From Saprospiraceae bacterium (GTDB lineage: Bacteria; Bacteroidota; Bacteroidia; Chitinophagales; Saprospiraceae): a stretch of DNA of 32,734 nucleotides. The position numbers were made by a program, and so were the translations under genes. The notes under the pieces were generated by a model that did not search any database, was not told where the DNA came from, and saw only the letters and a program-made list of their open reading frames with translations. The DNA lies in assembly GCA_020627825.1 (NCBI GenBank), contig JAHDGD010000033.1, positions 1 through 32,734 on the forward strand. The letters are read 5' to 3'. Position 1 is the first letter of the stretch; each line of letters opens with the position of its first letter. This document shows, piece by piece, positions 8,064 through 24,759 of the stretch.

Positions 8064-8801
8064 ATGAAACGTAGAGAATTTGTCCATAAAACAAGTATGG
8101 TAGCAGTAGGGATTGGAAGTTTGCCTGTCCTTTCTTGTACGAATGATCCCACACAAAAAGAACAATCTTCGACTTCTACCACACCTACTTTTACATTACC
8201 TGATTTACCTTATGACTTTAGTGCTCTTGCACCGAATATTGATGCAAGAACCATGGAAATTCATCATGACAAACATCATGCTGGATATGTGAAAAAATTA
8301 AATGCGGCATTACAAGATCACCCTTTAGCGGGAAAAAACTTAATGGATATATTAGCTTCTATTAAAGATCAAAATGCTGATGTTGGTGTGCGAAATAATG
8401 GAGGTGGCCATTACAATCATTCCATGTTTTGGAAAATTATGAAGCCTGGAGGAAGTGCTATGAGTCCAGAATTAAAAACCGCTCTCATGTCTACATTTAA
8501 TTCCAAAGAAGCATTCGAAAAAGCATTTGCAGCTGCAGCGAAGTCTAGATTTGGATCTGGATGGGCTTGGCTGAGTGTTGATCAAGATAAAAATTTATTT
8601 ATCAGCTCTACACCTAATCAAGATAATCCGTTGATGAAGCAAATTGTTGAAAAACCAGGAACTCCTATTTTAGGTATCGATGTATGGGAACATGCTTACT
8701 ATTTAAATTATCAAAACAGGAGAGGGGATTATATTGATAATTGGAATAATATCATAAATTGGGAACAAGTTTCAAAAAATTATACCGAAGCGATTTCCTA
8801 A
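8064..8801 (+). CDS. Exported Mn/Fe superoxide dismutase, predicted lipoprotein
   Basis: The enzyme converts superoxide to hydrogen peroxide and oxygen. The 245-residue product has an N-terminal export signal with twin arginines (KRREF, residues 2-6), a hydrophobic stretch and a lipobox-like VLSC with Cys25. It is then likely a periplasmic or outer-membrane lipoprotein exported by Tat. The mature part aligns with the family from TFTLPDLPYDFSAL on. Metal ligands are His67 (EIHHDKHH), His119 (GHYNHSMFW), Asp206 and His210 (DVWEHAYY). Gly-rich NNGGGH with Gln186 in STPNQDNPL is the arrangement of Mn-type enzymes, though cambialistic use is possible. I chose ATG 8064 because the longer frame from 7989 would hide the signal. 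A 14-bp gap to the next gene suggests co-transcription. Confidence 0.93.
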   Translation: MKRREFVHKTSMVAVGIGSLPVLSCTNDPTQKEQSSTSTTPTFTLPDLPYDFSALAPNIDARTMEIHHDKHHAGYVKKLNAALQDHPLAGKNLMDILASIKDQNADVGVRNNGGGHYNHSMFWKIMKPGGSAMSPELKTALMSTFNSKEAFEKAFAAAAKSRFGSGWAWLSVDQDKNLFISSTPNQDNPLMKQIVEKPGTPILGIDVWEHAYYLNYQNRRGDYIDNWNNIINWEQVSKNYTEAIS

Positions 8802-8814
8802 ACGTTTAGCTAGT

Positions 8815-9147
8815 ATGAAGTATTTATTTTGTTGTATTATTTTTCTTTTCTCTTTAGGGGCTTCCGCCCAAAAAGTATATGAGGTGGAATATGAGAGTAG
8901 GGCGGATGTCAGTGTATTTGTATGTGATTATGAAAGTCAAGCAGACCTTCTAGTCTATAAAGAAGACTATGAGTCAGGTGCAAGAGGAAATGAAGGAAAA
9001 TGGTTTTTTGTTGACTATGAATCTCGAGCAGATGTAAGTGTGTATTTTGTTGAATATGAAAGCCGTGCTGATTTAAAAATCTATTATGTTTCTTATGAAA
9101 GTAGGGCAGGCTGGAGAAATAATTCGAAGAAAAGCTTACTTGATTAA
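8815..9147 (+). CDS. Small secreted repeat protein, DUF6150-like
   Basis: This 110-residue product has a signal peptide (MKYLFCCIIFLFSLGASAQ). The mature part consists almost wholly of five short units of about 12-18 residues built around YESRAD or variants (EYESRADVSVF, DYESQADLLVY, DYESGARG, DYESRADVSVY, EYESRADLKIY, SYESRAG). The alternation VYxVxYESxAD matches my memory of the DUF6150 family, whose function is unknown. The regular hydrophobic/Tyr pattern suggests a small beta structure. It begins 14 bp after the superoxide dismutase stop, so the two are probably one operon, which hints at a cell-envelope stress context but proves none. Confidence 0.8.
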   Translation: MKYLFCCIIFLFSLGASAQKVYEVEYESRADVSVFVCDYESQADLLVYKEDYESGARGNEGKWFFVDYESRADVSVYFVEYESRADLKIYYVSYESRAGWRNNSKKSLLD

Positions 9148-9219
9148 AGTAAAGTGATAGATTCCTTAGGATTTATCCATTATTCACGTTAAATTTTATA
9201 AGGTGTAATTCGCGTTTAC

Positions 9220-11691
9220 TTAATTACGCCGCCGTTTTTTCTTATTCTTTTTCATCAATTTTCGAATTGAATTTTCAACTTGATTTTTGAAGTTTTCTAA
9301 TTCTCTATTATTTGTTGATTTACGAGATTTATATTTACGTGGTGTTCTTCGTGGTGCACGTTTAGTAGATTTTCTTGGTTCGCCAGTTATAACTTCTCCT
9401 TGATCTTCCTCCCCAAATAGAATATCGAAAATATCAAGATTGTCAGGGTCTCGTGATCGTTCTACAGCTGCAAATTGCCCCGGGTGTTCTTGAAGAAAAG
9501 CGTATTCTTCTGTGCTAATTGAATCTGGACAGCTCACAGGTAAAGAATCAAACTCTATTATACTTGGTTGATAACCTTTACTTGCTACATATTCAAACAT
9601 TCTGCCTACCATAGGTAATGCTGTTCGTCCGCCTGAACCAGTCCCCAAATTTCGGAAATGAATTCCTCTGTTCTGTGCTCCGACCCATGCTCCAAAAACA
9701 TAATCTTCTGTTCCGCCAATAAACCAACCATCTGTTTGGTTTTGTGTGGTACCTGTTTTGCCTGCAACTTCAAAAGGAATATTATAATTATAAAGTCGTG
9801 CCCCAGTACCTTGAGCAGTAACATTTTTCATGATATCTTGAATCATCTTATAAGAAGCCTCTACTTCTGTTTTGACGTAGGATTGTTTTTTACGTTCATA
9901 CAAGATATTGCCCTTGGAATCTGTTATTTTACTTATTCCATATAAATCAGGTTTTTCTCCACCATTCATAATGGCACTATAAGCAGTAACCATTTCTTGT
10001 AAGGAAATATCAGCTGTTCCCAAAACTAGAGAAGGTACAGTAGGTAGATCACTTTCTATTCCTAACTCCTCAGCGAACTGAACTACATTTTTCATTCCTG
10101 CATGAAACATCAATTGTACAGAAACCGTGTTAACCGAACGGGTAAGTGCTTCTTTTACGGAAAGATACCCTCCATATTTCCCATCCGAGTTTTGGGGCTC
10201 CCAGTCTTTGTAGTCTGAGTAGATCCTGCGTTCATTCGGGAAATAATCACAAGGAGTAAGATTTTTTTGTAAGGCTTTTAAGTAAACGATCGGCTTGAAT
10301 GTTGAGCCAACTTGTCTTTTACTAACTACATTGTCATATTGAAAGTGTCCATAATCTATTCCGCCTATATAGGCTACGATTTCACCTGACTTTGGTTGAA
10401 CTCCTAGAACCCCTGTGTGCAATAAACTCATGTAATGCCTGATAGAATCTTCCACACTTTTCATTTCAGTCGGCGAATCATCCCAAGACCACAGTTTCAT
10501 TTTGCGTTCCACATCCATCAATACTTCTATTTCTTCATTCGTTCTATTTTTAAACCTTTTGCCAAGTTCTCCAGATGAAATTTCATTTTTAAAGTATCGG
10601 TCACCTGGGCCATATTTGTTACCATTCTTCCATGATCTTTCAAATATCCCTTGTAAAGCAGCCATGTGTTTTTCCATATTATGTTCAGCCGCTATTTGAA
10701 GATCATAATCGAGTGTAGTGTAAATTTTAAGGCCATCACGCTTGATGTGGTAGATATCCCCATTTTCCTTCGGGTTATCTTTTGCCCATTTTTCAAATTC
10801 TTTTCGAACGTATTGCTGAAAATAACGAGCAAGTCCCGTTGATTCGCTTATAGATTTATAGTTGAGTACAAGTTCTTTAGATTTAGCTTCTTCGAGTTCT
10901 GTGTCTGAGATAAAATCATACTTGTTCATTTGATTCAAAACAGTATTTCTTCTAGCAGTACATCTTTCTGGATTTCTTTTGGGGCTGTAATAAGTAGGGG
11001 CTTTTAAGATACCGACTAGGGTTGCAGATTCCTCAAGATTTAATTTGCTAGGTTCTTTTCCAAAGAATCTTTTCGAAGCAGTGTGTAAGCCGAACGCTCT
11101 TTCTCCGAAAGATATAGTATTCGAATAAAGCAAGAGAATCTCATCTTTTGTGTAGTTTTTCTCAAGTTTTTGGGCGATTGCAATCTCACGAAATTTATTG
11201 AGAGGAAGACTTAAAATCTTGAATCTTTTTCGTGGATATAAGTTTTTGGCTAATTGTTGGGTAAGGGTAGAGCCACCACCTGATGCGTCATTTTGAAGTA
11301 AGATGGATTTAATTGCAACTCGTCCTAGCGATCTGTAATCGATTCCAGAATGCTTGTAAAATCGAATATCTTCAGTTGCTAATAGAGCGTTTTTGAAAGA
11401 GGTGGTAAGGTCGCTGGTGTCAAGGTCAGCTCTATTTTCATCGTAAAAAATCCCGAATAGAGATCCATCACGAGCATAAAGTTCAGTGGATAGCGGGTTA
11501 TTAATGGATTGGATTTCCTCGTGGGAAGGGAGTTTGGTTATAATGCTCCATTTTACAGAGAAGAACAGCATAAGGATGAACAAAGATCCAAGAACAAACG
11601 CAGTAGAAAACGCGAAAATAAGTTTAGTATACCATTTCTTCGACGTAAACCAAGTCCAGAGCGCTAACCATTGCTTTTTTATTCTATTCAT
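9220..11691 (-). CDS. Class A penicillin-binding protein (PBP1A-type peptidoglycan synthase)
   Basis: This bifunctional enzyme polymerises lipid II and cross-links peptidoglycan at the outer face of the inner membrane. The 823 residues comprise a short basic cytoplasmic tail and a membrane anchor (about 23-46). The GT51 glycosyltransferase follows, with catalytic Glu107 in ATEDIRFYKHSG and the GGGSTLTQQLAKN block at 138-150. The transpeptidase has active Ser463 and Lys466 in GSTFK, SVN at 519-521 and KTG at 645-647. The extreme C-terminus is a highly basic Arg/Lys tail (about 780-823), common in this phylum's PBP1A and perhaps binding wall or nucleic acid-like polyanions. It converges with the DUF6150-like gene, and upstream lies the truncated DCC copy. 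All catalytic motifs are intact. Confidence 0.95.
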   Translation of the reverse strand: MNRIKKQWLALWTWFTSKKWYTKLIFAFSTAFVLGSLFILMLFFSVKWSIITKLPSHEEIQSINNPLSTELYARDGSLFGIFYDENRADLDTSDLTTSFKNALLATEDIRFYKHSGIDYRSLGRVAIKSILLQNDASGGGSTLTQQLAKNLYPRKRFKILSLPLNKFREIAIAQKLEKNYTKDEILLLYSNTISFGERAFGLHTASKRFFGKEPSKLNLEESATLVGILKAPTYYSPKRNPERCTARRNTVLNQMNKYDFISDTELEEAKSKELVLNYKSISESTGLARYFQQYVRKEFEKWAKDNPKENGDIYHIKRDGLKIYTTLDYDLQIAAEHNMEKHMAALQGIFERSWKNGNKYGPGDRYFKNEISSGELGKRFKNRTNEEIEVLMDVERKMKLWSWDDSPTEMKSVEDSIRHYMSLLHTGVLGVQPKSGEIVAYIGGIDYGHFQYDNVVSKRQVGSTFKPIVYLKALQKNLTPCDYFPNERRIYSDYKDWEPQNSDGKYGGYLSVKEALTRSVNTVSVQLMFHAGMKNVVQFAEELGIESDLPTVPSLVLGTADISLQEMVTAYSAIMNGGEKPDLYGISKITDSKGNILYERKKQSYVKTEVEASYKMIQDIMKNVTAQGTGARLYNYNIPFEVAGKTGTTQNQTDGWFIGGTEDYVFGAWVGAQNRGIHFRNLGTGSGGRTALPMVGRMFEYVASKGYQPSIIEFDSLPVSCPDSISTEEYAFLQEHPGQFAAVERSRDPDNLDIFDILFGEEDQGEVITGEPRKSTKRAPRRTPRKYKSRKSTNNRELENFKNQVENSIRKLMKKNKKKRRRN

Positions 11692-11839
11692 GAAGGAAAA
11701 ACCGTTTTCAACTTTAGTTTATTGTTTAGGCATATAAATCTATAGCTATTAATTTCAAGACGTTAAAAATTCGAATGTAAAAACCACATCAATTTTGATG
11801 CGTAATAATAAATTCAAAGCATGCGATTTCAAGTTTCAG

Positions 11840-12097
11840 ATATACCTATGTCTCACTTGCTCATCCGGAACAGTGCAAGTAGCTTTCTTTCCGAAGATCC
11901 GATATCGAATATAAGCAACTCCATCATACATCTTATCCGTCCATTTTAATGGAAGAATGCGACCGATTAACAATACCTTATGAAAACCAAAAGGTAGGAG
12001 TTCTACAATTTTTAAAACAGCACGAGACTTCAGATATACTTCATCGTGATGCACAAGTACAACACTTTCCATTTTTTTGGGCTCGAGCCCAAAATTC
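11840..12097 (-). repeat. 258-bp perfect direct repeat, left copy
   Basis: This segment is identical in sequence to 20284-20541 at a constant offset of 8,444 bp. The bases just outside differ (G at 11839 against T at 20283; A at 12098 against T at 20542), so these are the exact limits. It covers codons 50-135 of the DCC gene and includes the 20-bp palindrome at 12075-12094 close to its right end. Confidence 0.95.
12075..12094. repeat. 20-bp palindrome TTTTGGGCTCGAGCCCAAAA
   Basis: This is a perfect palindrome inside the duplicated DCC segment, 3 bp from the repeat boundary. It shares both arms with the palindromes at 2194-2217 and 28671-28691. In the gene it encodes FGLEPK on the minus strand. 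Confidence 0.7.
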
Positions 12098-12193
12098 ATA
12101 TATGAGTCACTTTTAATAATGGATTTATAGTTGGTTGAAAATATGTTTTTATAAATAATTAAGCTGGTATTAACTACCATACATATTTTCATT

Positions 12194-13306
12194 TTAAGAT
12201 ATTAGGTTAAGGTTGTAAGCAATATTTTCTAGATAATGTTCTCCATTTTCCATTGCATCTTCCAAATCCTTAGCATAAGTCGTAATACTTTCTACTTTGT
12301 CTAGATGTAAAACTTCAATTGAATGTTTTGAAAGCTCGTTTTTTCCTACAATAAGAGTTAAAGGCTTATTATATTTTTTACACAGTTTAGCTATACCCGA
12401 AATCACTTTTCCTTGAAGTGATTGATTGTCTAATTTACCTTCACCGCTGATGACATGATCAGCTTGTTTGATTTTTATTTCTAACTCTGTAAGATCTGCA
12501 ATAAGGTCAAATCCGCTGATTATTTCAGCGTTAAAAAATGGTAAAATAGATGCAGGAATTCCACCAGCAGCCCCCGTTCCTTTAGTTGTTTGAAGATCTA
12601 TTTTAAATTGCTCTTGAATTAATAAGTTGTAGTGTTTTAGTCCTTGATCTAATATTTTTACTTCATGGGATGATGCTCCTTTTTGAGGAGCATAAACATA
12701 AGAAGCCCCGTTCGGTCCGTATAAAGGATTTTCAACATCACACACAATTTTAAAAACAATGTTATTGTATTTATTATCTCTAGGTTCTATGATGCGATCA
12801 ATAAGAACTAAGGAATGGCCGATAGGGTCTAAAACTTTACCACTTCTATCCAAAAATATATAACCTAATGCCGATGCAATACCTATACCAGCATCATTAG
12901 TCGCACTACCACCCAAGAATAATTGTAATTCGGTAAAACCAGATTTAATAGCATTTTTAATCATTATTCCAGTTCCGTAAGAACTTGTATGAATAGGATT
13001 TCTATCCTCTTCTTTCAATAGTATCAAACCACTCGCGTCTGCTAATTCTATAAATGCTTTGTGACCTGAAAAATAGTAGGGTGCATCTATCTTTCGATAT
13101 AAAGGGTCGACAGTTTCTATAATTTTTGTTTCTAGAGAAAGGGATTGCTTTAAAATACTTAACGAACCTTCTCCACCGTCTGCCATCGGTTGAATAGAAG
13201 TAGTTACAATGTGATGTTTTCTTTTTAATCCCTTTGAAATGGCATTACAAACTTGTATGGCAGAAAGAGAACCTTTGAATTTATCGGAGGCAATTAATAT
13301 GTTCAT
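12194..13306 (-). CDS. Glycerate kinase (GarK/GlxK family)
   Basis: The enzyme phosphorylates D-glycerate with ATP, in this family usually to 2-phosphoglycerate, feeding lower glycolysis. The 370 residues fit the family length of about 375-380. Diagnostic motifs are the N-terminal IASDKFKGSLSA (4-15), MADGGEGS (41-48), LGGSATNDAGIGIASALG (131-148), KGTGAAGGIPAS (242-253) and SGEGKLDNQSLQGK (287-300). It is the last gene of the island's minus-strand series, 89 bp after the symporter gene. Beside a hydrolase that releases glycerate from glucosylglycerate or mannosylglycerate, its role is most simply to use that glycerate. A role in glycolate/tartronate metabolism is possible for the family, but no such genes are nearby. 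Confidence 0.93.
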   Translation of the reverse strand: MNILIASDKFKGSLSAIQVCNAISKGLKRKHHIVTTSIQPMADGGEGSLSILKQSLSLETKIIETVDPLYRKIDAPYYFSGHKAFIELADASGLILLKEEDRNPIHTSSYGTGIMIKNAIKSGFTELQLFLGGSATNDAGIGIASALGYIFLDRSGKVLDPIGHSLVLIDRIIEPRDNKYNNIVFKIVCDVENPLYGPNGASYVYAPQKGASSHEVKILDQGLKHYNLLIQEQFKIDLQTTKGTGAAGGIPASILPFFNAEIISGFDLIADLTELEIKIKQADHVISGEGKLDNQSLQGKVISGIAKLCKKYNKPLTLIVGKNELSKHSIEVLHLDKVESITTYAKDLEDAMENGEHYLENIAYNLNLIS

Positions 13307-13395
13307 GAGGTAAATGAAGTAAAAAGTTCAAGTGACTAAGGAAGATTAATTTTAAGAAGTGCTTTATAAATTATAAATTAATAAATAATGCTTTT

Positions 13396-14964
13396 TTAAA
13401 AAAGATTAGGAATCGAGCTGCTAATAATCACGATTATGGCGAAATAAGCAACTAATATAATTGCCTTGAAGTAATCAATTTGAAATGAACCAAAATGTAT
13501 ACGTGTATTTTTATTAGTGGAATCATTTTTATACAAGTAACTAACAAAAAGACCAACAAGCAATGTAACAACCGCACCAAATGCATTCCACCAGAACCAA
13601 AATACTTCTGGAACAAATAACCACAAATATAAATTAATAGACACCCCTGCTATTAAACCAATGTTTGCTCCTATTGCATTTACTCTTTTAAATGCTATAG
13701 CTGCTATAAATGTGGCTAAAATGGGACCATAAAATACGGATCCAACTTTGTTGATGGCTTCAATAACAGTTTTTGCAATATCACCAGTAAAAAATGCAAG
13801 AACAATGCATACTACTCCCCAAAATAAAGCGGAATATTTAGAGTATCTCATGTATCTTTCATCTGATAATTTATGTTCTCTGTTGAAAAAATCTTCTACA
13901 GTAGCAGCACTTAAAGAATTTATAGCAGAACTTAGTGAAGACATCGCTGCAGAGAAAATAGCAACCATAAGTATTCCAATTACACCATGAGGCAAGAAGT
14001 CTCTTATGAATATAGGTATCATTAAGTCAGGCTTGTCGGCAGGAATCACAGATAAAAATTCAGGACTTAATAGTACTAAAGTACCTATGACAAGACCCAT
14101 AAGGCAATAAATAAATGTTATGGGAAATCTAAGCAAGCCATTAAATAGTAAAGTTTTTTTAACAGTAGGTAAATCTTGAGCGGAGAATAGTCTTTGTACT
14201 TGACTTTGGTCAGTGCCATAGTATGAAGTATACAAGAAAAATCCACCGATTAACATTGGCCAGAAGCCAAATTCTTCTCCTTCTTCAAAGCCCATTGAAC
14301 TGAAATCTACAGCCATTAATCTTTGGTTATCAATATTTTGAATAAAGTTTTCCCAACCACCTATGTAATGAATTCCAGCAAATAAACATATAATTATGCC
14401 CAAAAATAGGATGATCATTTGAATCATATCTCCGTATACAACAGCTTTCATTCCACCTTGATAGGAATAAATAAGTGTTACAATCCCTATTATTAAAATA
14501 GTTTGCCACATTGGGAAATCCATAACACTGGTTAAAATAAGTGCTACAGTATATATCATAACACTTGTAGCGAATGCTCTGCTTATTTGAAAAACTCCAC
14601 TCAATAAAATTCTTGTTGAAGCACTAAATCTTTTTTCCAGAAACGCGTACACGCTAACAATTCCGGCTTTGTACATCGGTGGTATTAAAAAAACCATAAG
14701 GAAAAGCATGGCCAAAGGAACAGCAAATTCATACGTTAACCACATCATCCCACCACCTTTTTTTAATCCCACAAAAGCTGGTGCAGAAATAAAGCTTATA
14801 GCAGATAATTGAGTAGCTATTGTACTAAGTGATAATGGAAACCAACCAAAACTTTTACCTCCAAGAAAATAATCTTTACTATTCTTATTGTTTTTGAATA
14901 ATCTTCCAAGAAATAGAAATCCGATAATATAACAAAGTACTACAATCCAATCTATATAATTCAT
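13396..14964 (-). CDS. Sodium:solute symporter (SSS family), putative glycosylglycerate importer
   Basis: This 522-residue polytopic inner-membrane transporter has about 13-14 hydrophobic segments beginning with IDWIVVLCYIIGFLFLGRLF. Family features include the GGKSFGWFPLSLSTIATQLS region after the first helix (Na+-site residues in the Ser/Thr-rich stretch) and the signature-like SYYGTDQSQVQRLFSAQD in the middle. SSS proteins move sugars, amino acids or organic acids with Na+. The substrate cannot be read from the sequence. Because it lies between the GH63-type hydrolase and the glycerate kinase and follows a TonB receptor, I infer it imports the intact glycosylglycerate. It starts 138 bp after the hydrolase stop. 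Confidence 0.88.
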   Translation of the reverse strand: MNYIDWIVVLCYIIGFLFLGRLFKNNKNSKDYFLGGKSFGWFPLSLSTIATQLSAISFISAPAFVGLKKGGGMMWLTYEFAVPLAMLFLMVFLIPPMYKAGIVSVYAFLEKRFSASTRILLSGVFQISRAFATSVMIYTVALILTSVMDFPMWQTILIIGIVTLIYSYQGGMKAVVYGDMIQMIILFLGIIICLFAGIHYIGGWENFIQNIDNQRLMAVDFSSMGFEEGEEFGFWPMLIGGFFLYTSYYGTDQSQVQRLFSAQDLPTVKKTLLFNGLLRFPITFIYCLMGLVIGTLVLLSPEFLSVIPADKPDLMIPIFIRDFLPHGVIGILMVAIFSAAMSSLSSAINSLSAATVEDFFNREHKLSDERYMRYSKYSALFWGVVCIVLAFFTGDIAKTVIEAINKVGSVFYGPILATFIAAIAFKRVNAIGANIGLIAGVSINLYLWLFVPEVFWFWWNAFGAVVTLLVGLFVSYLYKNDSTNKNTRIHFGSFQIDYFKAIILVAYFAIIVIISSSIPNLF

Positions 14965-15102
14965 ATTCAGGATTTATCAATTAATTGCTTTTATTTATAG
15001 TCAAACATTACTCTATGAAGCAAAAACTCGATATAGCTACTATTTTAAGTAGATATAAGCATTTTTACTACTGTAATGTTATATTTTAAGGGTTTTCAAA
15101 TG

Positions 15103-16401
15103 TTATATGATATTTGATAAATCAAGTGCACACGCTGCGGTCCATGAAAAGTCATTTCCACCATATCCTTTCGAAAGGTCAAAAGCTACTGATTTTTGGG
15201 ATTCAAAATATTCATAGAATCCATGCATTTCAATTAGTTCAAGAAGATCAGTCTTTACAATTTCTGCAGTTGAATGAAAATTGTAGTTTTCTAATCCATG
15301 GTATATCATCCAGTTCATTTGTGGCCAAATAGGTCCTCGCCAGTATCTTTTTGAATCAAACAATGGGCTATCAACATCAAAGCTAGGACATATGTAAAAT
15401 CCTCTATCATGAAGTGATATGAGATAATTGTTTAAATCCTTAGCTTGTTTCTGGGAAGGAATATTTGCAAATAGGGTAGAAATACCTCCTATTTCTTTAA
15501 ATTCTATTTGCTCATTGTTTCTTAGATCATAAGGAGTAAATGTTCTTAATTCTTCATTCCATAATTTTTCTCTAAACTTGGGAATAGATTGTTGTTGCCA
15601 TTCTTCTAACTCACCTGTGTCTAGTCCAAATCTTTTACCTACCTTGATCATACTTTCATTGGACCTTATTAGTACCATGTTCATTAGGGTGTCCTGAATA
15701 AGAAAAGGACTTTCTTCAAAAATTCCTATTTCTTCATACTTGTTTTCTTTACCCAATTGGAGCAAATAAACATAGCGGTCATATTGATATGATGTTGGTC
15801 TTTCTTCAGCGGGAGCTATAGAAATGTCTCTTCGCTCATAAGATGGAATATCGTTTTGCGAAAATTTAATTTGATCTAAAGCTTTATCCCACAGCGGTGA
15901 ATTATCTCTCCCAGATTCCCAAGGATGAAATATAAAAGTCAATCCTTCATTTAGGGGATCCCTGTATTTATAGAAAAAACGATGGCTATTTATGATTTTT
16001 GGATAGATATCTTTTATAAATGAAATAAGATGTTGATCGTCTGGATATTTATTAAGCAGATTTTCGATAACGAATCCATGCACCGCTGGTTGTGTAATTC
16101 CGGAAGATTTGGGTTTATTAGGTGCACCTTTATTAACGCTTGATTCCCAAAAATCAAAATTTGGAAAATATGTTTTCTCGTTTTCACTATGAAACAAAAT
16201 ATGTGGTACCATTCCATTTTGCCATTGTCCAGAAAATAATGAATTTAGCTCTTTAATAGCACTATTTAAATTATAATGACTTAGACCAATTGAAGTGAAA
16301 CCTGAATCCCAATTCCATTGAAAAGGATACAAGTTTTTGGTTGGGATTGTAAATCCATCTTTCCAATTCAGATCCAATATTCGGCGTGCATCATCTTTCA
16401 T
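15103..16401 (-). CDS. GH63-type glucosylglycerate/mannosylglycerate hydrolase
   Basis: This enzyme is predicted to hydrolyse 2-O-glucosyl- or mannosyl-glycerate to the free sugar and glycerate. The 432-residue protein has no signal peptide, so it is cytoplasmic. Compared from memory with the mycobacterial glucosylglycerate hydrolase, it keeps WDSGF (Asp32, like Asp43 there), the SGITQP motif (100-105) and HPWESGRDNSP with Asp166 (like general acid Asp182). It also keeps YQYDRY (206-210), KRYWRGPIWP (351-360) and FYEYFES with Glu397 (like general base Glu419). The (alpha/alpha)6 architecture and length agree with the bacterial MgH/GgH branch of GH63 rather than with long eukaryotic glucosidase I. 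The neighbouring glycerate kinase strongly supports a glycerate-releasing substrate. I cannot tell glucose from mannose; trehalase-like (GH37) use is less likely. Confidence 0.85.
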   Translation of the reverse strand: MKDDARRILDLNWKDGFTIPTKNLYPFQWNWDSGFTSIGLSHYNLNSAIKELNSLFSGQWQNGMVPHILFHSENEKTYFPNFDFWESSVNKGAPNKPKSSGITQPAVHGFVIENLLNKYPDDQHLISFIKDIYPKIINSHRFFYKYRDPLNEGLTFIFHPWESGRDNSPLWDKALDQIKFSQNDIPSYERRDISIAPAEERPTSYQYDRYVYLLQLGKENKYEEIGIFEESPFLIQDTLMNMVLIRSNESMIKVGKRFGLDTGELEEWQQQSIPKFREKLWNEELRTFTPYDLRNNEQIEFKEIGGISTLFANIPSQKQAKDLNNYLISLHDRGFYICPSFDVDSPLFDSKRYWRGPIWPQMNWMIYHGLENYNFHSTAEIVKTDLLELIEMHGFYEYFESQKSVAFDLSKGYGGNDFSWTAACALDLSNII

Positions 16402-16432
16402 ACATATTTTTTAAATAATAAAAATATAAAAA

Positions 16433-16468
16433 AGCAAGACAAGAGATAGGATTCATCCTTGTCCTGCT
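16433..16468 (-). terminator. Terminator-like hairpin between receptor and hydrolase genes
   Basis: On the minus strand AGCAGGACAAG pairs with CTTGTCTTGCT over 11 bp (one G-U) around a 14-nt loop and is followed at once by six T. It lies 57 bp after the receptor stop and 32 bp before the hydrolase start. It would end or reduce transcription from the receptor promoter before the enzyme and transporter genes. Confidence 0.65.
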
Positions 16469-16524
16469 ATATGAATAAATAATTCTGTCATACTCTCACA
16501 AAGAATGTACTTAAAGAATCTTAA

Positions 16525-19128
16525 CTAAAATTCAAAAGAAGCTCGAAGGAAAATTCTTCTAGGTAAAATCGGTCTTCCCACAAAGAAATTCCCCCCTGAA
16601 ACTTGACTATTTCCCTGTCTAGGAGAACCTTCCGTAACTCCATCTGCATTTAGCAAATTAAAGACAGAAATACCAAGTCGAAGACTTTCATCATTTTGTC
16701 CTAAAGCTAAAGTATAACCTGCATCTAAACGCACTATATTAAATCCGTCCAGTTCAACAGAGTTGCTGTTGTTAGCGAACTTACTTCCTAAAAAGTTGGA
16801 GCTGAAATTAGCATCAATAACACCATTGTCATAGTTAGCACCTATCATCCCCATAATATTAGGTATTCTTGCTATACTGTTTCCTACTTGTTCAGGGTTG
16901 CCTTCAACTTGTGTAAATCTATGATTCTGAAGTGTTAAATTACCATACGCATTGAATCCTTGAAAAATGGTATAATTTACGCTTGTTTCGATTCCTATTG
17001 TACGAGTGCTTTGTAATTGAATTGATTCCGTAATACCTCCTTGACCATCATTAACAATATCTACATTTCTTCTATCTCTTAACGCATTATAAAACACTGC
17101 AGCTGTACCTGCTAATCTTCTTGAACCATACTTAGCACCAATTTCTCCCTGCAATACAGTTTCGGTTTCATATGACTGTGCAGCTCCATCTGCAAACTTT
17201 AGGGATCTTAATTGTGGGAAGAAGTATCCTCTACTTCCATTAGCATAAATGTTCAAGTTGTTGTTTAATTTATATAAACCTCCTAAAACTAAAGCTATAT
17301 CTGAAGCTTGAACTCTCGCTTTGTTAAAGTTATTGGACCCTATACCATCTTCTAAACTTACAATCCCAACTGCCCTTTCCCACCTCAATCCAACATCGAA
17401 ATTAAATCTATCCAATTTAATTTCATCTGCAATGTAACCAGCTACTTTATTGCTCTGAAGTGTTTTATTTGCAGTTTGTCTTCCAGATCCCTCTACATAT
17501 CCATCTGTAGAATATAATACACTATTTCCCATTGTGTCAAGATAAGACAGTGAAATGGCTCTAGGAGAATTAGAAAAATCTCCAAGAACATTGTGAATCC
17601 AGTTGTTGTCAAGCGATCTTGTAGACGACATAAAAGTTCCAACAGTTAAATTATGGATGTTAACAGTTTTAGTTAAGTTAACTTCTCCTACTACTTCTTC
17701 CATATCTCTTTCTCTATCAAGAATTCTATTTTCAAATAATAGATCGGTATTGCTCAAAGTAGCGCCATTATCTGCATATGTAAATACAGCGTTTTCGTCA
17801 GAAATTCCTCTATCCTCAAGGTAACTCTCTTGGGTCTCGGGAGTGTTATGTGTGCCATCCCCATCTAAAAATAAGTTAAACCAATGATCATAAGAAGCAG
17901 CTTTGGTCTTAGCTGTAAGTTTCCAATTATTTCCAAATTGATGATTTAATTCAGCCATTATAAATTGTCCATTTGTAGTAACACCATCACCGATAGGTGA
18001 TTTAAATTGACCAAAAGGCGTATTAAAAGAAAAATCAGTTAATTGACTAGAAAGCATAGTGAAAATTTCTTCTCCATCATTTCCTATCGGTCTTTCTCTC
18101 TGATCATTTGAGTTATCAAGTGGATAAGGTAAATAAAATTGAACCTTATCATCTATTTTTTGCATGCACAATACAAATTTACTTTTACCATCGTTAAATA
18201 ATTTTTTAATATTTCCTCGTAGTTGATATCCTCTTGTAGGTAAACCAGTTTCTAATGGTCCTTCATCGTATCTGTAAAATCCCGAAAATGCGTAATAAAA
18301 TCCTTTTGAAAGTGGACCTGCTGATAAGAAGTCAGTTTTTAATCTCCCTCCTTGTGCCCACTCTAATTGAACTTTATTAATAGGGTCATCTGAACCTTGG
18401 ATACTTTGATAATTAACAATACCAGCAACACTTCCAGCTCCTTGTAAAGTTGCTGAACCACCTCTTACGAATTCTAGACTTCTTAAACCTATATCATTTC
18501 TAAAGTAAACATCATGGGCAGATGAATTCAATCCGAATGTGCTGAGAATTGGTATTCCATCTATGCTTAATGGTGTAAATGCGTATTGACCACCAGAAGG
18601 GAATCCCCTTACAAATAAATTCGTTGCAACTTCACCTCCACCACCTTCAGCAGTAATTCCTGGTACTGTCCTCAAAATGTCTGCCTGTGAATTTGAAGCT
18701 AGTCTCTGAAGTTGTGCCCCGTTTAAGACAGTTAATGACATAGGTGATTCTTTTTGTGATCTACCTGTAAAAGTACCTGTGACAACAATTTCATCAAGAG
18801 CTAATTTATCACTGCTTAACGATATATCTTGGGTATAATTTGTTCCATTTGCTACATCAATGGACAATTCATAAGTACGATACCCAATGTAAGAGTATAA
18901 AACTTTTTGATTTCCTGCAGGTAGTTGTAAAGAATATCTTCCATCTATATCTGAAACAGTTCCTAATGTTTCATTTTTAACTGTGACCGTAACTCCTATC
19001 AATGGAGCTCCTTCATCATCTGTGATTACACCTGATATGGTCCCTTGAGAAAAGGATAATCCCATGGAAAAGCAGACTAGAAAAATGCTTAAAATGGATT
19101 TAGTAAAAAGTAGTAAATTTCGTTTCAT
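16525..19128 (-). CDS. TonB-dependent outer-membrane receptor, not SusC-type
   Basis: This 867-residue outer-membrane active transporter is driven by TonB. It has a signal peptide (about 1-28, ending GLSFSQG) and a carboxypeptidase-regulatory-like beta sandwich typical of Bacteroidota receptors (about 30-110). Next come a TonB-box-like region around LDEIVVTGTF and a plug domain (about 120-240) with ILRTVPGI and SLEFVRGGSATLQGAGSVAG. The 22-strand barrel follows and ends in an aromatic residue (RASFEF). The length and lack of a SusD gene beside it place it with siderophore/small-solute receptors rather than SusCD polysaccharide systems. It is the first gene of the island's minus-strand series and divergent from the AraC regulator. 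By context it should import a small glycosylglycerate; an iron-chelate role cannot be excluded from sequence alone. Confidence 0.9.
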   Translation of the reverse strand: MKRNLLLFTKSILSIFLVCFSMGLSFSQGTISGVITDDEGAPLIGVTVTVKNETLGTVSDIDGRYSLQLPAGNQKVLYSYIGYRTYELSIDVANGTNYTQDISLSSDKLALDEIVVTGTFTGRSQKESPMSLTVLNGAQLQRLASNSQADILRTVPGITAEGGGGEVATNLFVRGFPSGGQYAFTPLSIDGIPILSTFGLNSSAHDVYFRNDIGLRSLEFVRGGSATLQGAGSVAGIVNYQSIQGSDDPINKVQLEWAQGGRLKTDFLSAGPLSKGFYYAFSGFYRYDEGPLETGLPTRGYQLRGNIKKLFNDGKSKFVLCMQKIDDKVQFYLPYPLDNSNDQRERPIGNDGEEIFTMLSSQLTDFSFNTPFGQFKSPIGDGVTTNGQFIMAELNHQFGNNWKLTAKTKAASYDHWFNLFLDGDGTHNTPETQESYLEDRGISDENAVFTYADNGATLSNTDLLFENRILDRERDMEEVVGEVNLTKTVNIHNLTVGTFMSSTRSLDNNWIHNVLGDFSNSPRAISLSYLDTMGNSVLYSTDGYVEGSGRQTANKTLQSNKVAGYIADEIKLDRFNFDVGLRWERAVGIVSLEDGIGSNNFNKARVQASDIALVLGGLYKLNNNLNIYANGSRGYFFPQLRSLKFADGAAQSYETETVLQGEIGAKYGSRRLAGTAAVFYNALRDRRNVDIVNDGQGGITESIQLQSTRTIGIETSVNYTIFQGFNAYGNLTLQNHRFTQVEGNPEQVGNSIARIPNIMGMIGANYDNGVIDANFSSNFLGSKFANNSNSVELDGFNIVRLDAGYTLALGQNDESLRLGISVFNLLNADGVTEGSPRQGNSQVSGGNFFVGRPILPRRIFLRASFEF

Positions 19129-19186
19129 AATAAATAGTTGTAATTGATTGATTTTTCAATATATAATTTGAAATTTCGTAATGAAT

Positions 19187-19194
19187 CAAAATTA
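19187..19194 (-). promoter_or_regulatory. Candidate -7 promoter element TAATTTTG for the receptor gene
   Basis: The octamer matches the Bacteroidota TAnnTTTG -7 consensus on the minus strand, 58 bp before the receptor ATG. No clear TTTG is found at the -33 distance. A weak -33 box would be in keeping with an activator-dependent promoter controlled by the adjacent AraC-type protein, but this is inference. Confidence 0.35.
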
Positions 19195-19294
19195 GATTGG
19201 GATTTTTAATTAAAAATGAAGAAAACTATCCATTGGTGACACTATTCTATAATTTTTTTGAGACAAATACATTCTATTTATTATTATTGTGTGA

Positions 19295-20158
19295 ATGAAG
19301 CCAGAATATGAAAAAATTGTAGATACTGGGTCTAAGTCCTTTATCATAAGAAATATTACGCGAAAAAGTCGACCACTTTTAAGTCAAGCATGGCATTTTC
19401 ACCCCGAAATCGAAATCTGCTACACAGAAAAAAGTAGAGGAAGAAGATTTGTAGGAAATCAGATCGCTGAATACGAAGAAGACGATTTAGTAATGTTTGG
19501 TTCAAATTTACCACACGGATTTACAACAGATATGTTTTGTAGTCAAGTCGTTATACAGTTCACTGGTGATTTCATGGGTCCCTCGTTTATCAATAAACCT
19601 GAAATGATAAAGATAAAATCATTATTAGAGCGTTCAAAGCAAGGACTTGAGTTTAAAGGTGCTCATAAAAAAAAGGCTATTAAGATTATTCGAAAATTGA
19701 GTACTTCGCAAGATGGGTTGTTTCAATTTCTTGAATTATTAAAATTATTGAAAACATTGACTGAAGGGAAAAAAGTTAAACATATTTGTACAAAAGAATA
19801 TGCCTTAGATTTAAACGCTAGTCAACTTGGAAGAATAAAGATAGTTTATGATCATATTATGAATAATTTTAAGGATGAAGTTCGAATCAAAACAATAGCT
19901 ACGAAGTTAAATATTTCAGAAGCAGCTTTCTATAAATTTATCAAAAAGCATACACATAAAACGTATACCCAAATAATTAATGAATTTAGAATTAATCATG
20001 CAAGTAAATTATTAATCAATTCAGATAAACATATTTCAAGCATTTGTTTTGAAAGTGGATATAACAATATTTCTTATTTCAATAGAAAATTTAAAGAAAT
20101 AATGCACGTTTCACCAATGGAATTTAAAAAGAACTACACTAATAAGTCTTTGATATAA
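19295..20158 (+). CDS. AraC-family transcriptional regulator
   Basis: This 287-residue DNA-binding regulator has an N-terminal cupin-like sensing domain (about 25-95) with WHFHPEIEICY (33-43) and the loop NLPHGFTTDM (71-80). The C-terminal AraC domain has two helix-turn-helix units: IKTIATKLNISEAAFYKFIK (198-217) and the second around ISSICFESGYNNISYFNRKF (247-266), then the usual HVSPMEFK ending. It is divergent from the TonB receptor with 166 bp between start codons, so both are likely controlled from that region. AraC regulators of this build usually activate catabolic genes when the sugar-like inducer is bound, so it is most simply the local activator of the glycosylglycerate genes. The inducer is unknown. 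Confidence 0.9.
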   Translation: MKPEYEKIVDTGSKSFIIRNITRKSRPLLSQAWHFHPEIEICYTEKSRGRRFVGNQIAEYEEDDLVMFGSNLPHGFTTDMFCSQVVIQFTGDFMGPSFINKPEMIKIKSLLERSKQGLEFKGAHKKKAIKIIRKLSTSQDGLFQFLELLKLLKTLTEGKKVKHICTKEYALDLNASQLGRIKIVYDHIMNNFKDEVRIKTIATKLNISEAAFYKFIKKHTHKTYTQIINEFRINHASKLLINSDKHISSICFESGYNNISYFNRKFKEIMHVSPMEFKKNYTNKSLI

Positions 20159-21219: not shown

Positions 21220-24200
21220 TTACTGTTTGATTATTTTTATGATTTTTCTAGATGATTCTTTTTCTATAAAACAAATGTAAGTTCCACTTGGCCATTCTAT
21301 TGATGGAATAGAAAGTCTATCATTATTAATGGATTGATCTCTAAATATCTGAATGCCATCAATTGACAAAATAGTGACCGATGCATACACAGGTATATCT
21401 TCTATGATCAGCACATTATGAATAGGGTTTTGGACCAATACGATCGATTCCAATTCACTTTCGCCAACGGAGGAAAATACATCTATAAATGTATTGAGTA
21501 TCGTTTCACATCCATTAGCATCAACAACTGATAAAGTATATTGACTTGAAGGGAAATTTATTAAATCTTCGCTTTCGCTTATCACCACACCATTTTCTGT
21601 CCATGTAAATGTATAAGGTGGAGTTCCTCCAGTTACATCGACATCAATAAATCCATCACTCTCTCCCGGTGTTTCATCTTGTTTCGCAATTTCAGTAATT
21701 ATGAGTTCATCTGGTTCTTTCAGTGTTATGTTTACACTATCCGTACAACCATTAGAATCTTGGATGATGTAGTTGTATATTCCTGCACCTAAATTACAAG
21801 TACTTGTATCGCCTATAAATTCATAAGGCGCTGTCCCTCCAACAATTTCAAATTCTATACAACCATCCATCTCCATAAAACACGAAATTTCTGTCACATC
21901 AAATTCTACTACAGGTTCTTCCAAAACGACAATCGTTTTGCATAATTGTAATGCTGAAGTATTGCCAGCTGCATCTGTGAAGGTAAACGATTCACAATAT
22001 TCACCTGACACATCTGTTTCTATAAAGAGAATAAGAGAGTCTGGTCCTACAGTTCCAGGGCAATTATCTTGAATTGAAACTTCATCAAAATCAATTTCTA
22101 GTAAATAAGAGGCGAATCCACAGAATGTATCGATTGATTGATCATAAGAAACTTCTATTAACGGTGCTATCGAATCCAAAATAATGATGTCATTGTACAA
22201 TGTATCTATAGGCGTTTCAAAATTATAGAATACTGTTTCAATTTCTAATGTATCTAAGACATCAGGACATCCTACAAAGATACTATCTACCACTACATAC
22301 AGACTATCATCACATGATCCCGCGATGGTTGATAGGAAAGATGGTATTCCATTGAATTGCCCGTTTTCATCAAGGTAAATAGGTTCAAATTCAAGTGTTG
22401 CAGAAGGAGAATCTTCTATACTTTTTTCAATTGTAAACGTGTCAAGATGCTGGCATCCTGCTGCATTTGTTATGATGACAGAAATCTCTCCTTCAAGTAG
22501 TGAATCTGCTGTGGTAGTCGTATCTCCGTTTGACCATAATATTTCATAAGGAGGAAAATTCCAATCAATACTAATATCTATTAGCGCAAACTCTTCCTCA
22601 CATGATACAATTCCAATGGAATCAATTGTTATCATTGCTTCAGCTGCATCAGTAATTTCGATACATAGTGTTTCTGAACAATTGTTTTCGTCTGATACAA
22701 TCACATCGTATTTGCCTGCTATTAAATTGCTTACTGATGAGCTAGTATCTCCTGTGCTCCAAAGGTAATTAAGAGTTTCTGAAGTATTCGAAGTAATAGT
22801 GGCTGTCGCTAAATCACCCACACAAATGATAGAGTTAATCTCAACATTTAAATCAAACATACATTCGACTTGAACAAGTTCGACAGAATCAATAACTTCA
22901 CAATTATTCGCATCGGTAACTGTTATGACATATGTCCCTGCCATTAAATTTTCAATTGCAGCCGTAGAGTCCTGTGTCGACCACAGATATTCATAAGGAG
23001 CAGTACCATTGTTAACTGTGACCGAAATACTTCCAGAAGAAGGATTGTCAGTACTTGGATTTGTTGCATCGAAATTAAGTGAAAGAGCTTCAGGGTCGGT
23101 AATCACATAGCTTGTCGAATCTGTACAATCTCCATTAGAAAATACCACACTATATGTTCCAGCAGTCAAGGAATTTATTGTAGATGTCATATCTCCAGTA
23201 TTCCATAAATAAGTGACAGGACCATCTGTTTCGAACACTACATCCACAGTTATAGACCCATCAGACCCACCATTACATGTAGGGTTTGAAAGGGTTTCAG
23301 ATATGTTGTACATGCAGTTGATGGCTTCTATTTCTACTGAGGATTCTATTGTACATCCATTAGCATCGGTAACGATGACGGTATAAATACCTGCTTCAGT
23401 CACGGTTATGCTTTGGGTTGTTTCATTCGTTTCTACCCATAAATAAGAATATGAACTGTTAAAACCACCAGAAGGATTCGCTGTTAAAGTGTACGGATCC
23501 ATTCCAACAACTTCTATCACGACAGATAAAGGATCATTAGTATTTTCTAATGTAAAGTTAGCTTCAGCAGTACAACCTTCAATACTGGTCAAAGTTACTG
23601 CGTATAATTCATTGTAAAATCCAGTAATGGATGGTGACGTTTCTTGAGTATTCCATTCATAGGTAACAGCAATAGAAGGATTTGCAAAAGCTTGCAGCAC
23701 TATTGTTTCACAGAACTGATCTACTACACCTATTGATGCGTTGAAGAGAATTCCAGCAGAAATTGTAAAAACTTGAACAATGGAACAGTCATTTTCATCG
23801 CTTATAACCACTTCATAAGAACCTGCAGGGAGATTTTCTATGAAATTATCAGTTGATCCAGTTGACCATAAATAACTTAGATTTCCTGTACCTCCAGCAG
23901 CTTCAACTAGTATGGAACCTGTATTTTCTCCAGCACAATCAACGTCAACAACAACTGTATTGGTTATGACTAATTCTGATGGTGTTGTTAAGTCAAATGA
24001 AATCATCTGACTCTCATTAGCAGCATCTGTTACATTTACACTATTCGTTCCTCCACTTAACATGGTGGCAGTTGTTCCTGTTTCACCACTTGACCATTGA
24101 ATAGAATAGGGTGGAGTTCCGCCAGTAATATTAACTTGTGCGCTTCCATCGTTACTATCAAAGCATAACGGGTCGTTAAGATTAACGACTTCAGCTACTA

Positions 24201-24759
24201 ATGGAGGTGTATCAACATTCATTGTTCCATTAAATTGTTGTGTAACTACTAAGTCATTGGAACTTCCAGAACCATTGGCAATCACGGAAATACTGTAAAA
24301 GTCGATAACGTCTCCATCAACAAGATCACTTGGTGCTGTCCAATCTACTTCGAAAGTTACTAGACCACCACTAAAATCAGTAGCCGGACTGTGTTCGACA
24401 TACGTTCTGTCACCTGATATTGTAACCGTTGCATTGGATGATGGATTAGAAAACGTACCTACAGTTACATTGTCATCTGGACCGACGTTTGTCATTTGAA
24501 AACCTGCTCGATCAGCGTTTAAATTGTCATCGGTTATGGTGATGATGAGTGGATATGTTTCACCTGGAAGAACGTCGGCATCTAGACCTGTCACATTAAT
24601 GCTGCCGGAAAAAGCGGGATTGGATGGCGCGTGGCAACCTGCTGAACCGCATGTGCTTTCTCCTGGAGCTCCTGTTCGCCCATTGGGCGGATTTCCAGAA
24701 AAAGAATAATAAAGTATTAAGCTAATAGCTAAAATGAATGCAGAGTATCTATTCTTCAT
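21220..24759 (-). CDS. Giant secreted SprB-repeat protein with choice-of-anchor V head and T9SS tail
   Basis: This is a 1,179-residue cell-surface or secreted adhesin-like protein. It has a signal peptide (1-21), then a choice-of-anchor V domain beginning NGRTGAPGESTCGSAGCHA (26-44), with Cys37, Cys42 and His43. About ten SprB-type/Ig-like repeats of 60-80 residues follow, each with the pattern GGTPPYxxxWSxGxT ... LxAGxYxVxVTDANGC. An irregular Cys-rich insert lies at about 830-980. The C-terminus is a type A T9SS sorting domain (IPVYASVTILSIDGIQIF ... WPSGTYICFIEKESSRKIIK). SprB-like proteins carry gliding motility adhesion in some members of the phylum; others bind surfaces or polysaccharide. 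No gliding genes are in the window, so the function here is only inferred as adhesion. Confidence 0.88.
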   Translation of the reverse strand: MKNRYSAFILAISLILYYSFSGNPPNGRTGAPGESTCGSAGCHAPSNPAFSGSINVTGLDADVLPGETYPLIITITDDNLNADRAGFQMTNVGPDDNVTVGTFSNPSSNATVTISGDRTYVEHSPATDFSGGLVTFEVDWTAPSDLVDGDVIDFYSISVIANGSGSSNDLVVTQQFNGTMNVDTPPLVAEVVNLNDPLCFDSNDGSAQVNITGGTPPYSIQWSSGETGTTATMLSGGTNSVNVTDAANESQMISFDLTTPSELVITNTVVVDVDCAGENTGSILVEAAGGTGNLSYLWSTGSTDNFIENLPAGSYEVVISDENDCSIVQVFTISAGILFNASIGVVDQFCETIVLQAFANPSIAVTYEWNTQETSPSITGFYNELYAVTLTSIEGCTAEANFTLENTNDPLSVVIEVVGMDPYTLTANPSGGFNSSYSYLWVETNETTQSITVTEAGIYTVIVTDANGCTIESSVEIEAINCMYNISETLSNPTCNGGSDGSITVDVVFETDGPVTYLWNTGDMTSTINSLTAGTYSVVFSNGDCTDSTSYVITDPEALSLNFDATNPSTDNPSSGSISVTVNNGTAPYEYLWSTQDSTAAIENLMAGTYVITVTDANNCEVIDSVELVQVECMFDLNVEINSIICVGDLATATITSNTSETLNYLWSTGDTSSSVSNLIAGKYDVIVSDENNCSETLCIEITDAAEAMITIDSIGIVSCEEEFALIDISIDWNFPPYEILWSNGDTTTTADSLLEGEISVIITNAAGCQHLDTFTIEKSIEDSPSATLEFEPIYLDENGQFNGIPSFLSTIAGSCDDSLYVVVDSIFVGCPDVLDTLEIETVFYNFETPIDTLYNDIIILDSIAPLIEVSYDQSIDTFCGFASYLLEIDFDEVSIQDNCPGTVGPDSLILFIETDVSGEYCESFTFTDAAGNTSALQLCKTIVVLEEPVVEFDVTEISCFMEMDGCIEFEIVGGTAPYEFIGDTSTCNLGAGIYNYIIQDSNGCTDSVNITLKEPDELIITEIAKQDETPGESDGFIDVDVTGGTPPYTFTWTENGVVISESEDLINFPSSQYTLSVVDANGCETILNTFIDVFSSVGESELESIVLVQNPIHNVLIIEDIPVYASVTILSIDGIQIFRDQSINNDRLSIPSIEWPSGTYICFIEKESSRKIIKIIKQ

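Follow-up and report, generated by a model that had tools for sequence, protein, structure and literature searches.

A locus for the probable scavenging of α-hexosylglycerates

We analyzed a 32,734-nucleotide stretch of DNA from a Saprospiraceae bacterium (GenBank assembly GCA_020627825.1; bases 1–32734 of our contig C157), hereafter the window, in which five adjacent genes very probably form a catabolic scavenging locus of the CUT (carbohydrate utilization with TonB-dependent transporter) type for α-D-hexosyl-(1→2)-D-glycerate, whether mannosylglycerate (digeneaside), glucosylglycerate, or both. The source genome comprises 4.46 Mb in 297 contigs at 96% completeness. What was computed comprises the gene families, a retained hydrolase active site, a conserved linkage of the genes, an association of the receptor with the hydrolase, and the lack of a detected mannosyl-3-phosphoglycerate synthase. 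An earlier note, made from the letters of the DNA, had claimed adjacent genes for a TonB receptor, a symporter, a hydrolase, a kinase, and a divergent AraC regulator; the list of open reading frames (ORFs) and searches with Pfam and NCBIfam profiles placed all five where it had predicted them, between 12194 and 20158, with Pfam support for each:

12194–13306, minus strand: glycerate kinase (PF02595/TIGR00045), 370 aa; Pfam Gly_kinase, 395 bits
13396–14964, minus strand: SSS-family sodium:solute symporter, 522 aa; Pfam SSF, 142 bits
15103–16401, minus strand: predicted GH63-type α-hexosylglycerate hydrolase resembling mannosylglycerate hydrolase (MgH) and glucosylglycerate hydrolase (GgH), 432 aa; MGH1-like_GH, 285.5 bits
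16525–19128, minus strand: TonB-dependent receptor with an N-terminal CarbopepD_reg_2 domain, 867 aa; barrel, Plug, and CarbopepD_reg_2, 95, 60, and 75 bits
19239–19251, minus strand: candidate AraC-type site, motif TATAGAATAGTGT, in the 166-bp divergent intergenic region
19295–20158, plus strand: divergent AraC-family regulator, 287 aa; HTH_18, 69 bits

On the minus strand, the genes are thus ordered receptor, hydrolase, symporter, and kinase, with the AraC gene divergent and 166 bp away. There is no sixth ORF of at least 150 aa between 12194 and 20158, and among ORFs of this size the receptor has no SusD-like partner. The SusC/SusD pair of a canonical polysaccharide utilization locus is absent, and the gene content is that of a CUT locus: a clustered TonB receptor, inner-membrane transporter, carbohydrate enzyme, and regulator.

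From these observations we infer the transport substrates, the place of hydrolysis, the induction, and, tentatively, the hexose. In the proposed pathway, the TonB receptor would bind the solute outside the cell and move it across the outer membrane, and the SSS symporter would take it intact into the cytoplasm together with sodium. The inverting GH63 hydrolase would then split it into hexose and D-glycerate, and the glycerate kinase would feed the glycerate into lower glycolysis, while a hexose kinase encoded elsewhere would handle the released sugar. The AraC protein would control the divergent operon.

The hydrolase resembles mannosylglycerate and glucosylglycerate hydrolases

The hydrolase scored 285.5 bits against PF22422 (MGH1-like; cut-off, 27 bits), with much weaker matches to the trehalase and GH63 Pfam families. 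PF22422 is broad, being passed by 160–163 of 395 genomes drawn evenly from the phylum (own genome included), and says little alone; the hydrolase protein itself served as our census probe. At 292.4 bits, it stayed below the cut-off of 550 of NF047898, the NCBIfam equivalog model for GgH, which qualifies our assignment. Because this strict model was not reached, we file the enzyme as MgH/GgH-type and not as GgH. When solved chains were searched with phmmer, Thermus TTHA0978 (2z07/4wva) came first with 306 bits, the Mycolicibacterium hassiacum chains scored 162–170, and YgjK scored 26. The closest relatives among the matches listed come from Saprospiraceae metagenome-assembled genomes (75% identity).

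An AlphaFold2 model of the hydrolase, built on 22 sequences taken from the window and the loci (pLDDT 93.8, pTM 0.94), found its best fold match in Thermus MgH 4wva_B, with a template-modeling (TM) score of 0.92 at 1.8 Å. TM scores were 0.85–0.92 for the chains of M. hassiacum GgH (MhGgH), about 0.7 for YgjK, and about 0.6 for trehalases, so that the predicted fold appears closest to 4wva/5ohc.

Active-site residues were mapped from those named in the accessible excerpts of PMC6608630 (excerpts were likewise our source for the other articles cited here by PMC number). Asp166 and Glu397 of the window hydrolase, the pair that the earlier note had singled out as the key residues of a GH63-type enzyme, align with Asp182 and Glu419, which are catalytic in the M. 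hassiacum enzyme. Kept in the catalytic and contact set are D166, E397, Y25, W29, W31, D32, Y78, Q104, G164, R201, Y207, Y353, and W354; among these, Tyr25, Trp29, Tyr78, Arg201, and Tyr353, with Tyr207 through a water molecule, are the predicted glycerate contacts. Altogether, 21 of the 27 mapped positions are the same in the window hydrolase and MhGgH chain 6g3n. Alignment with the characterized enzymes, which the earlier note had proposed as a check, thus does not move the hydrolase into another GH63/GH37 group and finds the direct substrate contacts kept. Other GH63/GH37 specificities, such as those of YgjK or trehalase, were ruled out by the fold ranking together with the retained residues.

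In a comparison of 19 active-site positions, the window hydrolase equals Thermus MgH at all 19 and MhGgH at 18, the sole difference being Gln434 of MhGgH, which is Phe418 in the window. The equivalent Phe is found in Thermus MgH and in 118 of 121 hydrolase rows; the solved chain 6g3n also has Phe at this position, although the excerpts of PMC6608630 speak of Gln434. As to which hexose is carried, the siding of Phe418 with Thermus MgH is a weak hint of mannosylglycerate over glucosylglycerate. Over the 121 rows (113 distinct), the catalytic Asp is conserved in 120, the Glu in 119, Arg201 in 120, and Tyr207 in 121, the exceptions being one shortened protein (L045) and one aberrant protein near a contig end (L191). 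The window hydrolase starts 23 residues ahead of its LYPFQWNWD motif, and given this short N terminus, in which no signal-peptide-like leader is seen, a cytoplasmic location is a reasonable prediction.

A tree of 116 hydrolase rows, made by a quick method with SH-aLRT as the sole support measure, long branches for both reference enzymes, and an unsure root, put the window hydrolase in a 57-row clade (support, 100) within a 105-row group (97). This group contains the receptor-linked rows of the tree plus seven rows marked receptor-less; Thermus, Mycolicibacterium, the synthase-linked homologues described below, L162, and L163 fall outside it.

Some hydrolases stood out in the comparison. Five from the window's own family (L161, L184, L185, L187, and L190; about 41–44% identity) carry the changes His78 to Gln and Gln115 to Met and have no receptor match nearby (the flank of L187 is short). 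The receptor-linked L157 hydrolase shares only Gln115 to Met with them. These contact changes possibly reflect a shift in substrate. The L184 hydrolase gene adjoins a gene of the GH13 α-amylase family, and L076 (Sediminibacterium) has a tandem pair of hydrolase genes at 9965–12650.

The unit recurs across Bacteroidota

The earlier note had also proposed looking for the same gene order in other genomes, and it does recur in other Bacteroidota families. We compared by their ORFs the best 80 of at least 569 relatives of the hydrolase (the named loci), counting for each neighbor those loci whose stretch extends far enough to show it (with room), so that denominators differ. A receptor of the same family lies directly upstream of the hydrolase in 40 of 65 such loci, and 68 of 72 have an SSS symporter on the downstream side; the kinase belongs to the unit in 55 of 66, and 29 of the 56 loci that could show receptor, symporter, and kinase contain all three. 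Together with the hydrolase, these three genes recur as a unit across Bacteroidota. Cultivated carriers of the hydrolase include Neolewinella agarilytica (L025), Winogradskyella eximia (L055), and Lewinella cohaerens (L017), the last without a receptor directly upstream. One Flavobacteriaceae group among the 80 is without the upstream receptor, and two Opitutaceae loci (L070 and L077; Verrucomicrobiota) gave weak receptor (24–26%) and symporter (50–54%) matches. In nine of the 80 loci, AraC- and LacI-controlled ones alike, hydrolase and symporter are separated by a gene resembling those for GNAT acetyltransferases (for example, L005:6703–7305 and L050:11294–11893).

The receptor scored 104 bits against the SusC/RagA profile, under its cut-off of 368, and its matches to solved TonB proteins were confined to the plug and N-terminal regions. 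We followed its association with the hydrolase in the phylum sample of 395 genomes and in a second sample of 119 relatives. At E ≤ 1e-40, the hydrolase occurs in 19 phylum genomes, own genome included, and in 21 relatives. Its distribution is patchy: two of four genomes of the same genus have one, two of the four being only 51–61% complete. Nine of the 19 phylum genomes have the receptor directly upstream and the symporter downstream, and ten do not. The receptor search of the 395 genomes gave 18 genomes at E ≤ 1e-60. Matches at E ≤ 1e-120 occur in nine of them, which are the same nine as above, and the coordinates put each of these receptors directly upstream of the hydrolase; the remaining nine genomes, with weaker matches (28–31% identity), have no hydrolase match. 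The E-value cut lies between 8.6e-126 and 2.5e-90 and was set after the list was seen, and with two receptor candidates scored per genome, weaker paralogues may be missed. Among the relatives, ten have the receptor at E ≤ 1e-200, and nine of these also have the hydrolase, directly adjacent in eight and two ORFs apart in one (G464); in 12 of the 21 relatives with a hydrolase, no receptor match was obtained.

Symporter, glycerate kinase, and hexose handling

The best solved matches of the symporter were sodium/iodide, monocarboxylate, and multivitamin transporters, followed by 5nv9, which we take to be a sialic-acid symporter, and sodium/glucose transporters. These relatives are compatible with an anionic sugar derivative as cargo, and the protein would be expected to act as the inner-membrane importer of the intact glycoside. 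The kinase, which would be expected to phosphorylate the released D-glycerate, matched 3cwc (putative glycerate kinase 2) with 224.6 bits and is the sole PF02595 match of its own genome. PF02595 was found in 87 of the 395 genomes, namely in seven of the nine receptor-type genomes versus 80 of the 386 others (Fisher p = 0.0005, uncorrected for relatedness).

The earlier note had called the locus self-contained. This holds in that the genes for import, hydrolysis, and glycerate phosphorylation stand together, but a hexokinase is not among them, and the ROK genes of the genome lie on other contigs (C142 and C179). Among the 80 named loci, a ROK-family gene follows the symporter in six, in five of them ahead of the kinase.

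Synthase-linked homologues and the search for a synthase

Four genomes of another family (f14) carry a hydrolase homologue with 35–37% identity beside a gene for mannosyl-3-phosphoglycerate synthase (Pfam, 522 bits in L165; 97–98% identical genes in L166–L168), and within this sample the adjacency connects the enzyme family with mannosylglycerate. The stretches around these four homologues gave no match to the window receptor or symporter. No synthase or receptor match was found near the other f14/f26 copies (L169–L172), and the synthase had no match in the 80 named loci. Set against each other, the synthase-linked and the receptor/symporter-linked homologues separate endogenous from scavenging contexts. 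Beside the synthase-linked hydrolase of L166, an RtcB ligase gene (8690–11656) encodes an intein-like domain; the RtcB ORF of L168 (8463–11429) matches it in length and split, and those of L165 and L167 have no insert.

The own genome, 96% complete, gave no match to PF09488 (mannosyl-3-phosphoglycerate synthase). A search with NF010496 (PRK13915), presumably glucosyl-3-phosphoglycerate synthase, gave no match over the cut-off of 262 and eight weak ones (best, 59.7 bits), which look like general glycosyltransferases; a divergent synthase could be missed. Since no synthase was found and the sole PF02595 kinase of the genome lies in the locus, scavenging is favored.

Regulators, candidate operators, and flanking genes

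All 38 loci with a receptor and room have a divergent regulator, of the AraC type in 24 and of the LacI type in 14. The motif TTATAGAATAGTGT recurs in AraC/receptor intergenic regions, the window copy being that at 19239–19251. A first motif search picked up nothing but the beginning of the AraC reading frame, and the non-coding part was used instead. Of 27 intergenic sequences, 22 entered the analysis: in L007, L011, L027, and L028 the AraC start was not recognized, and L043 has a very long interval. Over these 22 loci, which are related and so not independent, the motif (width 14) reached 17.6 bits versus 9.9–10.5 bits in four single-base shuffles, with a poor fit in L020, L031, L046, and L048. 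The TATAGAATAGTGT copy is perhaps the site through which the AraC protein controls the divergent operon. A genome-wide search with the motif pattern gave one other exact match, versus one for the reversed control, and we therefore claim no wider AraC regulon. In most of 15 LacI-type loci (among L049–L081), the receptor gene is preceded at a distance of about 60–110 bp by a palindrome-like sequence, CGTTTnCGnAAACGTTTGCG, several of the 15 not fitting; it is likely a LacI operator.

The flanks of the window locus look unrelated to it. One side encodes LepA, a superoxide dismutase, and a transglycosylase/transpeptidase; the other encodes an SprB-repeat protein, an SRP54-type GTPase, and a subtilase. 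The SprB-repeat protein (21220–24759; 1179 aa) also has a weak Por_Secre_tail match and is likely a gliding or adhesion surface protein.

Weighing of the proposed function

The pathway reading of the earlier note is borne out by the Thermus MgH-like fold of the model, the retained contacts, and the recurring gene order, and the function it assigned is very probably right. Several observations weigh against it or against a fixed role for the receptor. Similarity to SSS proteins is not proof of substrate, and the locus encodes no hexose kinase. The kinase was not seen in 11 of 66 named loci with room. No receptor lies directly upstream of the hydrolase in 25 of 65 such loci, in 10 of the 19 phylum-sample hydrolase genomes, and in 13 of the 21 hydrolase-bearing relatives, G464 among them; in a further relative (G489), a receptor at a contig end comes without any hydrolase match. 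Because it is missing directly upstream in so many hydrolase loci, the receptor is not essential to the pathway, and a 268-Da solute could pass porins. Finally, six mapped positions differ from MhGgH (its residues 191, 212, 214, 215, 432, and 433), which in the excerpts of PMC6608630 line the entrance tunnel or hold the open state.

These six differences, together with the Gln434-to-Phe418 contact, would suit a hydrolase that has drifted to another α-glycoside, for example, glucosylglycerol or glucosylglycolate. The same Phe in Thermus MgH and in 118 of 121 rows argues otherwise, as does the linked glycerate kinase, which implies glycerate, and MhGgH is described in the excerpts of PMC6608630 as not cutting either compound; we regard such drift as very improbable. 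A larger import substrate, such as mannosylglucosylglycerate or a glycerate-capped oligosaccharide, with the hydrolase acting on the last bond, is improbable. TonB receptors often serve larger ligands, and this one has a SusC-like N-terminal domain, but no second glycosidase recurs in the unit among the annotated neighbor clusters, and the uptake of sucrose, a disaccharide, depends on SuxA, a receptor of the same class (PMC1790865, excerpts).

The locus might instead recycle the cell's own compatible solute, its transporters merely recapturing what has leaked. The hydrolase family serves endogenous turnover in mycobacteria, according to the excerpts of PMC6608630, and apparently also in the homologues beside the synthase. 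These homologues, however, are without a match to the window receptor or symporter nearby, and after the own-genome searches with PF09488 and NF010496, we judged endogenous recycling quite unlikely. Scavenging of an external α-hexosylglycerate thus remains our favored explanation.

We also consider it somewhat more probable than an even chance that the receptors represent a distinct TonB-receptor family dedicated to active α-hexosylglycerate uptake across the outer membrane, which has spread among Saprospiraceae, Flavobacteriaceae, and further Bacteroidota in company with its hydrolase, symporter, and kinase, with AraC and LacI regulators interchangeable. If so, α-hexosylglycerate solutes would be a carbon source scavenged with high affinity, and surveys built on SusCD pairs would overlook the receptor family. 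A receptor family whose strong matches in the phylum sample adjoin the hydrolase would supply a marker gene by which metagenomes could be screened for this carbon flow, as well as a concrete example of a 268-Da solute taken up in a TonB-linked way, and the recurring TonB receptor/SSS pair would gain an annotation. Digeneaside is found in red algae, and Prochlorococcus NATL2A has glucosylglycerate as a major solute, according to the portions of the literature accessible to us; within its partial coverage, our literature search found little on their consumers and the means these use.

Comparison with known systems

Among characterized enzymes, MgH of Thermus thermophilus HB8 (4wva/4wvb/4wvc and 2z07) is like the window hydrolase in fold (TM 0.92), with 40% identity over 408 positions and full agreement at the 19 compared positions, including Phe where MhGgH has Gln434. 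MhGgH (GH63) is likewise similar in fold (TM 0.85–0.92) and at 18 of these positions but differs in sequence (27.5% identity over 400 positions) and at the six entrance or open-state positions, and the window hydrolase, unlike GgH, falls under the NCBI GgH cut-off. MhGgH serves recovery from nitrogen starvation (PMC6608630, excerpts). Glucosylglycerate phosphorylases (GH13_18) of Meiothermus, Spirochaeta, and E. coli also release D-glycerate from glucosylglycerate (PMC6521584, excerpts) but do so by phosphorolysis and belong to another enzyme family.

CUT loci had been defined by 2007 (PMC1790865, excerpts). The Xanthomonas sux locus, with its TonB receptor SuxA, permease SuxC, enzyme SuxB, and regulator SuxR, resembles the window locus in combining a TonB receptor, an inner-membrane transporter, an intracellular enzyme, and a regulator for a disaccharide-sized solute. 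Window-type loci differ from it in substrate, in transporter type, in AraC or LacI control (SuxR is LacI-type), and in the added glycerate kinase. In the excerpts of PMC1790865, SuxA is needed for sucrose uptake (presumed Kd, 0.033 μM) and not for growth at 20 mM, and the TonB dependence of this uptake is left unsettled. The sux system is thus a precedent for a small sugar served by such a receptor. In the enterobacterial MngA/MngB route, the phosphotransferase system takes up the same solute as that proposed here, and the phosphorylated product is the substrate of a GH38 enzyme.

Closer in lineage, digeneaside-degradation genes have been reported in Zobellia galactanivorans, with homologues in Maribacter (M. 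dokdonensis) (PMC8072126, excerpts), and digeneaside is among the possible substrates of North Sea Flavobacteriia (PMC6298971, excerpts). These genes concern the same solute and phylum. The earlier note had taken a route with a TonB receptor and a Na+ symporter to be new. Our literature search, of partial coverage and without supplements, found no description of the TonB, SSS, GH63, and kinase unit; the Flavobacteriia digeneaside genes and the CUT loci weaken the claim. The type of system is known, and what our analysis adds is the association of receptor with hydrolase, the contrast between scavenging and endogenous contexts, and the candidate operator.

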